A stretch of DNA of 31,523 nucleotides from the NCBI GenBank assembly GCA_002841685.1, contig PHAM01000017.1, forward strand, positions 1 through 31,523, in the 5' to 3' direction. Position numbers and translations under genes: made by a program. How positions within the stretch are numbered: position 1 is the first letter of the stretch; each line of letters opens with the position of its first letter. The stretch is from Elusimicrobia bacterium HGW-Elusimicrobia-2. Lineage in GTDB: Bacteria; CG03. This document shows, piece after piece, positions 702 through 26,150 of the stretch. The notes beneath the pieces are model-generated. The model was not told the origin of the DNA. It did not search any database and worked only from the letters and a program-made list of their open reading frames with translations.

Positions 702-2122
702 ATGTTTATTCGAAGGAATCGCAATCGCAGCGGGTCGGTCAGTGTACAAATTATCTCCAAAAAAAATAGAAGATACCGAGTAGAAACAGTTGGTAATTCG
801 AAAAATCCTGAAGAAGTAGAAAGACTGGCAGTAGAAGCGAAAAATCGTATCAATTATCCATTAAACCAAACATCACTGTTCCCAAACCTGTCAAAAACGG
901 ATGCTGTTATCAAAAACTTTCTGAAAAACATGGCTAATCTGCAAGTTCATACTATTGGACCTGAGATTATCTTTGGCGCCCTGTTTGATAGAATTGGTTT
1001 TAACGTCATAAAAGAAAAGTTGTTTCGTCACATTGTCATCGCGCGATTAGCCTATCCGGTCAGCAAATTAAAAACGGTTGACTATTTGTATCGTTATCGT
1101 GGAATAAGGCTGAAAGTGGATAAAATATATCGGTTTCTTGATAAATTATGCGACAGTTACAAAGAAACTGTTGAACGGATAGCATATGATTACACAAAAC
1201 AAACGTTAAAGAATATCTCAATAGTATTTTACGATATGACCACACTCTATTTTGAAACTGACGACGAAGATGATTTAAGGAATATAGGATTCTCCAAGGA
1301 CGGAAAATTCCAAAACCCACAAATCATGTTAGGTTTATTGGTCGGACAGCATGGCTACCCCATCGGTTATGACATTTTCGAAGGTAACACATTTGGCAAA
1401 ATCTCACAAATCAAAAATATCAATTCATTATCGGGGCAAGAATCAAAAATGAAAGCCATAAAAAGAAAGAAGCAATATTAAAAAAGGCCAAAGGCCTGAG
1501 CGACGGCCAAAGTTTCTCGTTGAAGAAATCGGATGGAACGAGATTGATTATTACCTATTCAGAAAAACGTCGTACCAAAGATTTTTACAATAGAAAAAAG
1601 GGTTTACAAAAACTGCGCCAAAAAGTAAAAACAGGCAAATTAACTAAAGCAAGCATAAACAACCGCGGGTATAATAAATTCCTTGTTCTCAAGGGCAAAG
1701 TTGAAATTGAGATAGATGAAAATAAAATCCAGGAAGACCAAGTATGGGATGGCCTAAAAGGATACATTACTAATACGCGGCTACCTGCTAAGAAAATAGT
1801 AGACAATTACCGCCACCTCTGGCAGATAGAAAAAGCTTTCCGTATATCAAAAACCGATCTTAGAATCCGGCCTATTTACCATTACCGAAAAAAACGCATT
1901 GAAGCTCATATTTGCATTGCATTTGCAGCTTATACTATTTACAAAGAATTGGAGCGGCTCCTCTATAAACACAAGGCCGGTTTTAGCTCCAAACGAGTCG
2001 CTGAATTGTCACACACCATGTACGAGTTTGAATATATGCTTCCACATTCAAAGAAGAAAGAAAAGACAATTTTAAAAATGAACGATGAGCAGCAATTGCT
2101 TTACAATATCATTTGTAAATAA
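702..2122 (+). pseudogene. IS1634-like transposase with internal deletion and frameshift
   Basis: Two open frames belong to one transposase. The first (702-1481) holds the N-terminal region and the first catalytic Asp (FYDMTTLYFET), followed by GFSKDGK, NPQIMLGLLV and YDIFEGNTF, all typical of IS1634-type DDE transposases. The second frame (+2 relative to the first) can be read from about 1403 through KYQFIIGARIKNES to the stop at 2122, including the third acidic block (HLWQIEKAFRIS). Between FEGNTF and KYQFII family members normally have some 35-40 residues carrying the second catalytic Asp (VADAGLLS-type). Here that stretch is absent and the frame shifts near 1392-1405. The first frame then runs through out-of-frame codons to 1481. 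The protein cannot be a complete DDE enzyme. The start at ATG 702 follows an AGGG, 4 nt away. Confidence 0.85.
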
Positions 2123-10540: not shown

Positions 10541-11509
10541 TTAACAAATACGCCGTTTTTTTGCAATTTCAATGTCTTTTTTTATGCGTTCTATCAAAGC
10601 CCCGCGCGAGGCGAACTTTTTCTGCTTCCTGATAAAGCGCCCGAACTCAACGGTAAATTTAGAGCATTTATGAAGGGGGACTGTCCCCTTTACGGACGAA
10701 GCTGAAAATCCACCGTCTTTTAGGCGAGTCCGGGGTACCCGCGTTAGCGGGTCGGGGGACTGTCCCCGTCTGTGCAACGCGTGAAACTCAAAGACTTTTT
10801 TTATGCCGAAAGTCGGGGCGCCGCCCGAATTGACAACGGCCCTGAAACGGCCGGAGGCGCATGTGACCTCAGCGGCGAAAACGCCCGCCGGCACCAATTT
10901 ATGTTTTTCGGGCATCAGATTTACCGTCGGAAAACCCAGCGTGCGCGCTATTCCGAGGCCCTGCACCTTTCTGCCGCTGACCCTGTAGGGCCGTCCCATG
11001 AGCGCGGCGGCCCGGGAGGTCTTTGACAGCGCGATGAGTTTTTTGATCAGCGTCGTGGATATCTTCATGCCGCCGCGGGCTTTGGTCCTCACCACCTTCA
11101 CCTCGAGCCCCAGCTCCCGCGCCCATTTTTTGAGTGAGGCCACGGTGCCTTCCTTCTTCCTGCCGAACACGAAATCTTCGCCTATGACAAGGCGCCGCAC
11201 ATTATATTTTTTGACGAGAACATCTTCCAGAAAAGCCCGCGCGCTCATCTTCCAGTATTTCTCTATTTTGAGCATCACGGGTTCAAGCCCCATCCCCGCG
11301 AGGACAGTCTTTCGCTCTGCGGCGCTGGTGACGATGTTTCCCGCCTTGTTGGGATTCCTGAAAAACACAAACACCTTTTTTGTACCGGGGCATTTCAGAA
11401 GTTCTTTGAGGACAGCCCTGTGTCCGGCGTGTATACCGTCGTAAATTCCGATTGAAGCGGAAACTGAAAGTCCGCCGGGGCGGATAGTTTTTTGGACTCG
11501 GCGTCTCAC
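10541..11509 (-). CDS. ribF: Bifunctional riboflavin kinase/FAD synthetase, with repeat-derived insert
   Basis: RibF phosphorylates riboflavin to FMN and adenylates FMN to FAD. The N-terminal nucleotidyltransferase half shows SASIGIYDGIHAGHRAVL (the GxFDGxHxGH site) and IGEDFVFGRKKEGT. The kinase half shows GRPYRVSGRKVQGLGIARTL, then GFPTVNL and VPAGVFAAEV. After FEFHALH, where family members have a short DF-x-GDLYG turn, about 34 extra residues intervene before KCSKFTVEFGRFIR. These are exactly the translation of the palindromic repeat at 10673-10770, inserted without breaking the frame. The 322-residue length therefore hides a short core of about 288. The start is GTG 11509, with no obvious Shine-Dalgarno sequence; nrnA ends 12 nt upstream. 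No FMN riboswitch is seen. Confidence 0.93.
   Translation of the reverse strand: MRRRVQKTIRPGGLSVSASIGIYDGIHAGHRAVLKELLKCPGTKKVFVFFRNPNKAGNIVTSAAERKTVLAGMGLEPVMLKIEKYWKMSARAFLEDVLVKKYNVRRLVIGEDFVFGRKKEGTVASLKKWARELGLEVKVVRTKARGGMKISTTLIKKLIALSKTSRAAALMGRPYRVSGRKVQGLGIARTLGFPTVNLMPEKHKLVPAGVFAAEVTCASGRFRAVVNSGGAPTFGIKKVFEFHALHRRGQSPDPLTRVPRTRLKDGGFSASSVKGTVPLHKCSKFTVEFGRFIRKQKKFASRGALIERIKKDIEIAKKRRIC
10673..10770. repeat. REP/BIME-like palindromic unit inside ribF
   Basis: Two copies of GGGGGACTGTCCCC (10675-10688 and 10754-10767, same orientation, 79 bp apart). Each is a near-perfect palindrome with arms GGGGAC/GTCCCC around a central T. A third hairpin, ACCCGC-GTTA-GCGGGT, lies between them at 10737-10752. 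The architecture resembles bacterial interspersed mosaic elements. It sits wholly within ribF and is translated on the minus strand as HRRGQSPDPLTRV… to …VKGTVPLH. Confidence 0.75.
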
Positions 11510-23122: not shown

Positions 23123-23737
23123 TCATTTTAATTTTTCTAAAACCGTTTCTGTCAGATCCGTGGCAGGCATGCCGTAAACAGCGTTGTTTTTATCAATGAC
23201 CAGATCGTATCCGCCCTCCTCGGCGGCCTCGGCGACCGCGTCATAGATCCTGCCCATTATCTGCGACATGTATTCGCTTTTGATATTCTTCAAACCTTCC
23301 CTGGCCTCAACCGAGAGGAGTTCTTTTTGTTCCCTGAGAGCTTTTATCTCTTCGCCCCGCGTGTCGGTTTTTACGGCCGCTGTGGATATTTCCACATCCT
23401 GCGCGGTTGAGGTGGAAACGGTAAGCTCCGAAGCTTCGGCGCTCATTGTGGAAACGCTCACCGGCTTCGCCTCCTCAAGGGCCATGCTGGTCTCAAGCTG
23501 GCGTATTTTAGCGTCCATGGCGGTAATGTCCGAAAGATATTTTTCCCTGCGGATGTCCAGTTCTTTTTCCGCCAGTTCTTTCATGCGGAAACGGGAATAA
23601 ATGCCCTCTATGTCAACGAAAGCCACTTTCTGCGTGGATATCATCTCCGCGCGGACGAGCCCTGAGCACAAAAAGCACAAACAGATGAATTTCAGCGCGG
23701 TCAAAGCGATTGCCCCCTTTTTTCCGGATTTTACCAA
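23123..23737 (-). CDS. Periplasmic OmpH/Skp-family chaperone
   Basis: Skp holds unfolded outer-membrane proteins on the way to BamA. From a TTG start at 23737 the product is 204 residues. The frame is open to a GTG at 23764, but the TTG has AGGGG seven bases upstream and gives a clean signal peptide (KSGKKGAIALTALKFICLCF, then LCSGLVRAE), whereas the GTG has no Shine-Dalgarno sequence. The mature part begins with KVAFVDIEGIYSRF, then a long charged coiled coil (KELAEKELDIRREKYLSDIT). It ends with GGYDLVIDKNNAVYG and DLTETVLEKL, as in the family. A Ser/Thr/Val-rich insert (STMSAEASELTVSTSTAQDV) interrupts the coiled coil. The start overlaps the bamA stop by 7 nt. Confidence 0.9.
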   Translation of the reverse strand: MVKSGKKGAIALTALKFICLCFLCSGLVRAEMISTQKVAFVDIEGIYSRFRMKELAEKELDIRREKYLSDITAMDAKIRQLETSMALEEAKPVSVSTMSAEASELTVSTSTAQDVEISTAAVKTDTRGEEIKALREQKELLSVEAREGLKNIKSEYMSQIMGRIYDAVAEAAEEGGYDLVIDKNNAVYGMPATDLTETVLEKLK

Positions 23738-26115
23738 AAGATATCCCCTATTGTAAAATACCACTGAGTCTGGGATTCGCCTTTCACATGATCAATGCCT
23801 TTTGCCCAGTCCAGCCGCACGGGGAAAGCGGGGATCTTGAATCTTATACCCATTCCCCATCCTCTTTTAAAATTATTTTCCGTCAGGCCGAAGGCCCAGT
23901 TCACATCTTCTCTTTTATCCCATGTACCGCCGAAATCAAAGAAAAACGCCCATTGCAGGACAGTCTGATTGTTCTCCCTGACGAGCGGAAACTTGAGTTC
24001 CAGATTATTGACATTCATGTACCTTCCGCCCTCGGAAGGGCCTATCTGGCCCCTGTAATCATAACCTCTTATGGATTCGCCGCCGCCGGTGTAAAAACGC
24101 TCGTAAACCGGCACGTCGGGGGTTGCCCCGTAACCTGTGACAACGCCCGCCTCAAAATTTGTCACCAAAACCAGCCTCCAGACAATCGGGAAAAAATACG
24201 ATATCTGAAGGCGTTCCCTGTGAAAGAAATTCTGTCCGCCGAAAATACCCAGAGCCGTTTGCTCGGAAAGTTTATAAATGGACCCCGTCGTGGGATCCCA
24301 GAAATAATCCCTTGTGTCACGCGTGAGAGAAGTCCGCACGCTGGATGTGATGCCCCTGCGGTCGGCCAGCGCTCTCTGTTCAAGCATATATGCGTTGTCC
24401 GTAGCATAAAGCCGCAAAGCCTCATAAGCGTATGTCACATTCGCGTTGTACACCTTCATAAAGCGTTTGCCAAAACCTATGCTGCCGCCTCTTTTGTGTT
24501 CGTGATATTTATCAGTGACGGTTGAGGAACTCACATATTCCTGCACCCTGTCTATGTCATAAACAGAGGCGTTGAAAGAAAGATCCCTGCCGAAGAAATA
24601 GGGCTCCGTGAAAGAAAGATTATAATTTTTCCGGCGAGCGCCGAACTCCCACATGAGAGAGAGCTTCTGCCCCATACCTCTAAAATTGGTTTCCGATATC
24701 TGCATCGTGCCCACGAGCCGGTCCACGGAGGAATATCCCGCACCGACGGAGAGCATCCCCGTCTGCTGCTCCTGCACCTGAAAGGTCAGATCCATCTTAT
24801 CCCTTATGTGGGTGTCCGTGGGGATGATCTGCACATCCGAGAAAAAGCCGAGATTAAAGATACGCCGCTGAGACTCCCGCACCTCGGTTAATTTGAAAGG
24901 ATCGCCTTCTTTGACATGTATTTCCCTTTTGATGACAAACTCCTTTGTGCGGCGCGAGCCTTCTATATAAATGTTGTTGATGCTGATCTGCTCTCCCTCG
25001 TGGACACTATAAAGAATATTAACATTGCCGCCTTCATAGCTGTATTCGGGGCTGATCAAAAGCTTCAGATAACCGTCATCCGCGTACAAACCGTTCACGG
25101 AGGAAATTAAAATCTCCTCATTTTTGCGGGAATACACCTTGCCCTTTTTGAGTTTGGCCTGCTGTATGAGCGGCGTGAATGCTGAGCTGTCTTTGACGAC
25201 AGAGCCTTCAAATCTCACATCGCCAAGATTATATCTGCCACCCTCATAAACAAAAAGAGTCAGAGTCACGGAATCGCCGGCGGGGGAATAGCTGATATAA
25301 GGTTTTGATATCTCAAAACGGGCGTAACCGCGGTCCTTATAGAATTCCACTATTTTGGCGGTATCAGCATCCAGCTTTTCGGGGTTGAATATCTTTTTCT
25401 TTTTTAATTCCATCAGGGATTTTATTTTTTTCACCTTAAAGGACTTCACACCCGGCAGATTGATATCGCTGATGAGTATTTTCTGCCCCTCTTCTATGTA
25501 AAATGTCACGATGGATTTGCCTTTTTTGTCGGGTTCGTCTATGAAATGGCTCACCGTCACTTTTGAAAAGCCCTCTTCTCTGTAAAGGTCCTGTATCGCG
25601 CGGATCTCGTTCATCACATCGCTGACCGAAAAATAATCGCCGCCGGATAGCGTGATCTTTTCAAGCATCATTCCCGATGACACTTCCTTGTGGCCCACAA
25701 ATTTGAATTTTTTGAGCCGGGGTTTCTCTTTCACCTGGAAACTTATCACCGTGCCCGCGGCGCCGGTGCTGATCTCCACCGACACATCCTCGAATTTTTT
25801 CATGTCATATATGCGTTTAATGTCGCCGCGCAGCACTTCTTCCGAAAAAATGTCCCCGGCACGGACGGATATCTCTTTGGTGATCTTTTTGGTTTTAACC
25901 GTTTCATTGCCCGATATCTCGACACGCTCGATAAAATCTTCGGATAGAGCGGTGAGATAACCCGCGAAAACGCACAAGGCCGCCGCGGCAAAAAGAGAAA
26001 AATGGGACGTCCTTAATATTATGCGTGGGAAATGTATATGAAAAAATATAGGACGTCCCATTTTTTTCATTTTTTTCGCCGGTATTTTTAAATCCCTCTC
26101 GTTTTCGTATTTCAT
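23731..26115 (-). CDS. bamA: Outer-membrane assembly factor BamA
   Basis: Central subunit of the BAM complex. 794 residues. Five POTRA domains occupy about residues 60-440, beginning IERVEISGNETVKTKKITKE, then RLKKFKFVGH, KILISDINLPGVKSF, RYNLGDVRFEGSV and ISINNIYIEGSRRTKEF. The 16-strand barrel follows (LSVGAGYSSVDRLVGTMQIS), with the loop-6 motif SIRGYDYRGQIG and a terminal aromatic residue (GDIFW). The signal peptide is odd: basic residues KIPAKKMKK are separated from the hydrophobic core FSLFAAAALCVFAGYLTAL by about 21 residues encoded by the inverted-repeat unit at 25999-26066. No Shine-Dalgarno sequence precedes ATG 26115. A -10-like TACAAT lies 8 nt upstream, so the mRNA may be nearly leaderless. 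skp and lpxD follow, the usual order. Confidence 0.95.
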   Translation of the reverse strand: MKYENERDLKIPAKKMKKMGRPIFFHIHFPRIILRTSHFSLFAAAALCVFAGYLTALSEDFIERVEISGNETVKTKKITKEISVRAGDIFSEEVLRGDIKRIYDMKKFEDVSVEISTGAAGTVISFQVKEKPRLKKFKFVGHKEVSSGMMLEKITLSGGDYFSVSDVMNEIRAIQDLYREEGFSKVTVSHFIDEPDKKGKSIVTFYIEEGQKILISDINLPGVKSFKVKKIKSLMELKKKKIFNPEKLDADTAKIVEFYKDRGYARFEISKPYISYSPAGDSVTLTLFVYEGGRYNLGDVRFEGSVVKDSSAFTPLIQQAKLKKGKVYSRKNEEILISSVNGLYADDGYLKLLISPEYSYEGGNVNILYSVHEGEQISINNIYIEGSRRTKEFVIKREIHVKEGDPFKLTEVRESQRRIFNLGFFSDVQIIPTDTHIRDKMDLTFQVQEQQTGMLSVGAGYSSVDRLVGTMQISETNFRGMGQKLSLMWEFGARRKNYNLSFTEPYFFGRDLSFNASVYDIDRVQEYVSSSTVTDKYHEHKRGGSIGFGKRFMKVYNANVTYAYEALRLYATDNAYMLEQRALADRRGITSSVRTSLTRDTRDYFWDPTTGSIYKLSEQTALGIFGGQNFFHRERLQISYFFPIVWRLVLVTNFEAGVVTGYGATPDVPVYERFYTGGGESIRGYDYRGQIGPSEGGRYMNVNNLELKFPLVRENNQTVLQWAFFFDFGGTWDKREDVNWAFGLTENNFKRGWGMGIRFKIPAFPVRLDWAKGIDHVKGESQTQWYFTIGDIFW
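25999..26066. repeat. 68-bp inverted-repeat (REP/MITE-like) unit in the bamA signal-peptide region
   Basis: Perfect 16-bp inverted repeat AAAAATGGGACGTCCT (25999-26014) and AGGACGTCCCATTTTT (26051-26066) around a 36-bp spacer. Each arm itself contains the 10-bp palindrome GGGACGTCCC, or GGACGTCC plus flanks. On the minus strand the unit is read in frame as MGRPIFFHIHFPRIILRTSH within bamA. Confidence 0.8.
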
Positions 26116-26123
26116 AAGTTGTT

Positions 26124-26150
26124 ATTGTAGCATATAGTCGGCATTAACAA
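26124..26150 (-). promoter_or_regulatory. Candidate promoter of the bamA-lpx operon
   Basis: On the minus strand TTGTTA and TACAAT are separated by 15 nt. The -10 matches consensus 5/6; spacing is short. Transcription would begin at about 26117, only a few bases before ATG 26115. It lies in the 117-nt gap after the PorV-CsgG gene. Confidence 0.4.

Follow-up and report, generated by a model that had tools for sequence, protein, structure and literature searches.

How does a perfect palindrome come to stand, in frame, within the signal peptide of an essential gene? The gene in question is bamA of Elusimicrobia bacterium HGW-Elusimicrobia-2, carried on a contig of 31,523 nucleotides that was analyzed at full length (the window). 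Its identity is given by a TIGR03303 match (512 bits, with a cut-off of 297) and by the presence of POTRA and Omp85 domains (Table 1).

A sequence-only reading of this DNA had reported a perfect 16-bp inverted repeat at the start of bamA, and the arms are indeed exact reverse complements: AAAAATGGGACGTCCT at 25998-26013 pairs without mismatch with 26050-26065. Since the next base pair out, 25997/26066, is mismatched, the unit ends there, and the range first proposed (25999-26066) was one base off. The 10-nt palindrome GGGACGTCCC, which had been taken as the core of the repeat, is incomplete in both arms; each contains the 9-nt GGGACGTCC, either arm read inward gives GGGACGTCCT, and a single end of the unit forms a loopless palindrome of 8-10 nt. 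On the + strand, ATGAAAAAATAT precedes the right arm. The window holds exactly one repeat of this kind (16 perfect bases, loop of at most 60), none of 60 windows simulated with a Markov-1 model holds a comparable one, and a pattern search of the window with AAATGGGACGTCC found no second copy. The coding strand of the unit has a predicted fold of -36.1 kcal/mol (z = -4.9), with an equally stable structure in none of 200 shuffles. Rfam matches to the hairpin came from eukaryotic families only, far under thresholds, and were dismissed as chance.

Table 1. Coordinates of the repeat unit and of the bamA features around it (positions in the window)
Feature	Position	Strand	Basis
Putative 68-bp palindromic mobile unit in bamA, in frame at about residues 17-40	25998..26065	-	Exact arms, family members, empty G003 site
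Left arm AAAAATGGGACGTCCT, followed by TAATATTATG; "left end" of the family	25998..26013	+	
Right arm, 16 bases equal to the left arm on the - strand; "right end" of the family, consensus ATGAAAAAATGTAGGACGTCCC	26050..26065	-	
38-bp core between two GGACGTCC palindromes; inverted relative to sister species G001	26013..26050	+	
bamA, 794 aa, OM_YaeT, POTRA + Omp85	23731..26115	-	Profile matches
Hydrophobic core of the bamA signal peptide, SLFAAAALCVFAGYLTA; kept in the empty-site orthologue	25945..25995	-	
Most upstream in-frame ATG of bamA	26113..26115	-	
Block ATGCTACAATAACAACTT right before the ATG; near-identical by eye in G001 and G003	26116..26133	-	

Translation confirms the in-frame placement that had been proposed: the unit reads MKYENERDLKIPAKKMKKMGRPIFFHIHFPRIILRTSHFSLFAAAALCVFAGYL in the bamA frame, with MKKMGRPIFFHIHFPR as the peptide belonging to it, and stands between the Lys-rich MKYENERDLKIPAKKMKK and the hydrophobic core FSLFAAAALCVFAGYL of the signal peptide. 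The frame is closed upstream of the first ATG by a TAA at 26122-26124, and two further in-frame ATGs lie at 26070, upstream of the unit, and at 26061, inside it. The next in-frame start after 26061, a TTG at residue 47, already falls within the hydrophobic core, and no signal peptide would result from it. Because the window's bamA frame has no start codon between the unit and the hydrophobic core, the unit must be translated, wholly or for the most part, for BamA to be exported. The TACAAT in the ATGCTACAATAACAACTT block is a possible -10 element of a leaderless or very short-leader transcript; a sigma-70 promoter scan of the bamA strand gave no match.

Comparison with relatives, all of them draft MAG-style assemblies, points to an insertion. 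The closest orthologue, G003 (L042; BamA 93% identical), has neither the repeat nor the extra residues, and its empty site, MKYGKNTVSMRRFFSPLFAAAALCVFAGYLTALSEDFVERVEISG, lies in an ordinary-looking signal peptide; bamA of the family-level outgroup G006 also lacks the unit. The DNA between start and unit also differs from the empty allele, with a net gain of 24 residues, so taking out the 68 bp alone does not yield the sister sequence. No target-site duplication was identified.

In G001 (BamA 81% identical) a unit occupies the same place between colinear flanks, with its core the other way around: 33 of 39 positions agree with the window core when inverted, against 20 of 41 in direct orientation, and the inverted alignment scores 25, with at most 4 in 2000 shuffles. 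Since the core matches better inverted while the flanks remain colinear, a single insertion was probably inherited by both and inverted in one of the lineages. As G003 groups with the window by identity, the unit must either have been lost in G003 or have inserted twice independently at this site; the shared core favors the loss. Reading from the upstream ATG in G001 stops at a TAA within the unit (MKYGTNSSLEKMVEKMKKWGRP*), and GAGGGGAAG followed by ATGTATATGAAAAAA then opens the reading MYMKKCRTSLFFAAAALCVFAGYLAAA. Here, an upstream mini-ORF ends in the element, which also brings a likely ribosome-binding site and start codon (MYMKKCRTS...). In G002, a different palindromic repeat, GGGGACTGTCCC, adjoins the signal peptide of bamA. 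In this gene (L044), the repeat shows as two GGGACTGTCCC palindromes in the frame upstream of the hydrophobic core, and a GTG overlapping the upstream gene's stop may be the start.

The unit belongs to a dispersed family, whose copies we counted by pattern search. With at most one mismatch, the half-motif GGGACGTCCTTAAT occurs 22 times in the window's own genome (G000, a draft of 1.78 Mb in 94 contigs), 11 times in G001, 50 times in G002 and 21 times in G003, compared with one match of the reversed control pattern in each of these four genus genomes. The family appears confined to the genus: 12 other genomes of the phylum lack the 18-mer AAAGGGGACGTCCTTAAT, and 94 other genomes lack the 20-mer. 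GGGACGTCCTTAATATTATG, longer than the half-motif and found at four places in the window's genome, has matches in the genus only among 98 genomes searched. In a genome-collection scan, likewise, the only hits were two named MAGs of the genus, the window's own genome being possibly left out of that collection. In a full unit, a purine-rich core is bounded by the left end AAAAAGGGGACGTCCTTAATATTATG and the right end ATGAAAAAATGTAGGACGTCCCCTTTTT; numerous copies comprise one end alone, and some are clustered. AAAAAGGGGACGTCCTTAAT is present in the element ends, and some right ends carry GTAG before the palindrome, where the unit in the window has ATAG. The core motif AATGTATATGAAAAAAT, allowing one mismatch, has two non-self matches, in G001 bamA and at G001:C181. 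As a side observation, six element ends cluster at L087 5115-5341 (G002:C85), partly with a 51-base period, and GGGGTTGACTTTCGATACTTATTGG or near variants recur beside element copies in L013 and L014 (G000:C19), L029 (G000:C85) and L071 (G002:C29).

With many further copies in the genome, an empty orthologous site and no usable downstream start, the proposal of a mobile insertion is supported. The copies mainly avoid gene interiors: only 4 of 76 element clusters lie deep in them, compared with 73% of shifted control positions. Another 47 of the 76 lie at 5' ends of genes, which among non-interior positions amounts to 65% against 54% expected, so that the excess at 5' ends mostly reflects the avoidance of interiors. 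Signal peptides or N-terminal membrane helices were found, by a crude ORF caller and a hydrophobicity rule, in 28 of 57 genes with a 5' element and in 68 of 173 others (Fisher p = 0.22), and we therefore claim no targeting preference for signal peptides.

Other protein starts carry the element in frame. A CHU_C-type protein begins with MKKCRTSPFYFV... in two species (its Pfam match is below the gathering score), with MKKCRTSPFYFVMAALITAAAF and MKKCRTSPFYFVFFVFFLAAL as in-frame N-terminal uses; a TPR protein starts with MKKCRMSPFFLQLFLSLFLL or MRKLRTSPFSMLLIALVLL (MKKCRMSPFF..., MRKLRTSPFS...) and a second one with MKKLRTSPFSPFSRKS... or MKKLRTSPFSPFS...; and an ApbE-family protein with a lipoprotein-like signal contains VEKVGRPLFLCFFLGTVFLFGSC. 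Non-exported proteins also have in-frame copies, for example at the N-terminus of a DNA ligase. One end, AAAAAGGGGACGTCC, reads as a Lys/Gly-rich peptide and the other, GGACGTCCCCTTTTT, as a Phe-rich one, so a copy that is read through looks like the beginning of a signal peptide, basic first and then hydrophobic. Orthologous-looking proteins in L147 (G002) and L153 (G001) have an N-terminal element in different frames (LRTSPF and IKDVPFF).

Two further features of the window deserve mention in their own right. Within ribF (10541-11509), the riboflavin kinase part contains two in-frame GGGGACAGTCCCC palindromes (10676-10767, - strand). Flavokinase is matched there in two stretches, and alignments with relatives cover residues 4-246 and 280-322, with only some 21 bases between them in G003, so that a second palindrome family seems to have added about 26 residues. 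At 702-2122 (+ strand), two adjacent ORFs in the same direction (259 and 200 aa) resemble one transposase split into two pieces; only the second matches DDE_Tnp_1.

A candidate source of mobility is found in G002, where a gene for a 226-aa Y1 transposase lies between inverted ends AGAAAAAGGGGACGTCCTTAAT (G002:C53; L088 1242-1922), beginning shortly after the left end, with the right end at most about 20 bp past its stop codon. The protein matches PF01797 above cut-off (E 1e-16; IS200/IS605-like Y1 family) and NF047646 REP_Tyr_transpos at 60 bits, below the 80-bit cut-off; PNHYHL and YARYY motifs, for the HUH motif and the tyrosine, are visible, and a sequence comparison with solved structures gave no match. 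Because this gene in a sister genome has the same flanking ends, the 68-bp unit most likely derives from a RAYT-type element and is non-autonomous. A search of the window's own genome found no RAYT gene with exactly these ends: a related copy on C22 (L040) has the diverged GGGGACGGAGGTAATT. Inverted ends of other kinds flank further RAYT genes of the genus (GTGGGGTCAGGTCTTGACATT at G000:C27, L039; GGGGACGGTGCTTGACATTGTGACAATAG at G002:C12, L187). At L088 1883-2000 (G002:C53), the RAYT stop overlaps an ATG (TGATGA) from which a frame runs out through the element end and on into the signal peptide that the following gene encodes, MRKLRTSPFSMLLIALVLLRTSPFLSLLYADF.

The explanation that we prefer, with a probability of roughly 0.85, is that the unit is a non-autonomous, genus-specific RAYT/TIRYT-type element inserted in the BamA signal peptide where its n-region meets the hydrophobic core. 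Two inverted ends around a short core (AAAAAGGGGACGTCCTTAATATTATG ... ATGAAAAAATGTAGGACGTCCCCTTTTT) would have entered the genome of an ancestor belonging to the genus. Oriented as in the window, the unit leaves the bamA frame open, which may be why the insertion was tolerated: about 24 residues would be added to the n-region, and the intact hydrophobic core would still direct export. In the G001 orientation, the unit's stop would end the mini-ORF, and a GGGG-rich site and an ATG of its own would restart translation as MYMKKCRTSLFFAAAAL. Neither orientation would disturb the hydrophobic core or the mature protein. A RAYT probably mobilized the unit in trans at some time, and the unit most likely persists as a near-neutral passenger.

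More speculatively, the family could be a mobile start module, a full copy of which would carry a stop to close the frame upstream, a ribosome-binding site and an outward ATG followed by a basic n-region (MKKCRTSPF). We consider this unlikely. If true, insertion near the start of an exported protein would rebuild both its translation start and its signal peptide, and the in-place flip in bamA would swap two N-termini.

One rival holds that the hairpin is no passenger and was selected for bamA control, as an attenuator of translation or transcription. Its strong predicted fold (z -4.9) does lie near the mRNA 5' end, with a T-rich stretch after it on the coding strand. Nevertheless, the unit is entirely absent from sister species G003, stands before or in many unrelated genes, and is part of a translated region, whose ribosomes would melt it. 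A terminator scan was empty at the unit, though its loop limit would exclude so large a loop. We regard a selected regulatory role as rather improbable.

The unit might also be an invertible start cassette, in which flipping switches bamA N-termini or expression levels as a form of phase variation. A core flanked by perfect 16-bp repeats, opposite orientations of the same insertion in two species with colinear flanks, and different start architectures in the two orientations would all suit such a switch, and inversion has been described in a review for the Correia element, another bacterial MITE (PMC10969869). We nonetheless find an active switch doubtful: one orientation was seen per species, bamA is apparently translatable both ways, leaving no clear off state, and a single old inversion explains the data.

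An assembly error behind the inversion, whether in the window or in G001, seems very improbable. The assemblies are fragmented throughout and G001 is listed with 6% contamination, but the usual assembly k-mers are longer than the 16-bp arms, the cores differ by point changes (33/39 identity) and are thus not copies of one sequence, and the insertion claim is independent of orientation. Finally, a repeat that never moved, arising by local duplication or as part of the ancestral BamA N-terminus, might draw on the A/T-tract-rich arms and on the presumably fast evolution of signal peptides, but is hardly credible given that dispersed copies and a transposase gene share the same ends and that G003 and G006 have sites without the unit.

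With a mobile, RAYT-type element as the preferred reading, the empty, forward and inverted alleles at one site in sister species constitute a clean natural experiment on mobile palindromes entering essential coding sequence. They suggest that the signal-peptide n-region is a tolerant landing site, where, with ends that read as Lys-rich and then Phe-rich peptide, some insertions may do no harm or even be of use. They also carry a warning: start-codon annotation in such genomes can be wrong where units lie.

Several known systems bear comparison. Rickettsia palindromic elements (RPEs) insert in frame in protein genes, including the N-termini of expressed proteins (PMC10969869; PMC3733652). The likeness seen here is one of behavior, the in-frame insertion of a palindromic unit: RPEs are about 150 bp long with a conserved peptide of their own (PMC10969869), whereas the unit described here has 68 bp and shares its ends with a transposase gene. 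REPINs and GTAG REPs likewise combine two inverted palindromic ends, a hairpin, association with RAYTs, and clusters and arrays; the loopless single end of the present family differs from the REP stem-loop. Surveyed REPs lie mostly downstream of genes (PMC3733652), in contrast to the 47 of 76 clusters at 5' ends here, a share little higher than the 54% expected outside gene interiors. The RU-2 element of Yersinia was found in 2007 in the signal peptide of a putative exported protein (PMC2759123); here, the protein is BamA, and empty and inverted sister alleles are available.

A close parallel is with TIRtrons and TIR repeats, in which RAYT-like tyrosine transposase genes have inverted repeats, not REPs, at their flanks (BMC Genomics 2013, PMC3733652). 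Both have a Y1/HUH transposase gene between inverted ends that are also dispersed single, paired or clustered, and the GGGGWSAS motif shared by several TIRtron ends (PMC3733652) is close to GGGGACGT of this family. A term search of that article's text found no mention of the phylum of this genome, and a literature search gave a weak negative, with no Elusimicrobia case of such a palindrome insertion found. Intragenic REPs, RAYT-type genes with inverted ends and dispersed ends have already been described (PMC3733652). Unlike in TIRtrons, a full unit stands here in frame in the signal peptide of an essential gene, with an outward start codon in its right end. Intragenic palindromic elements are themselves known; the unusual parts are an inversion in place within bamA and a start codon that points outward.
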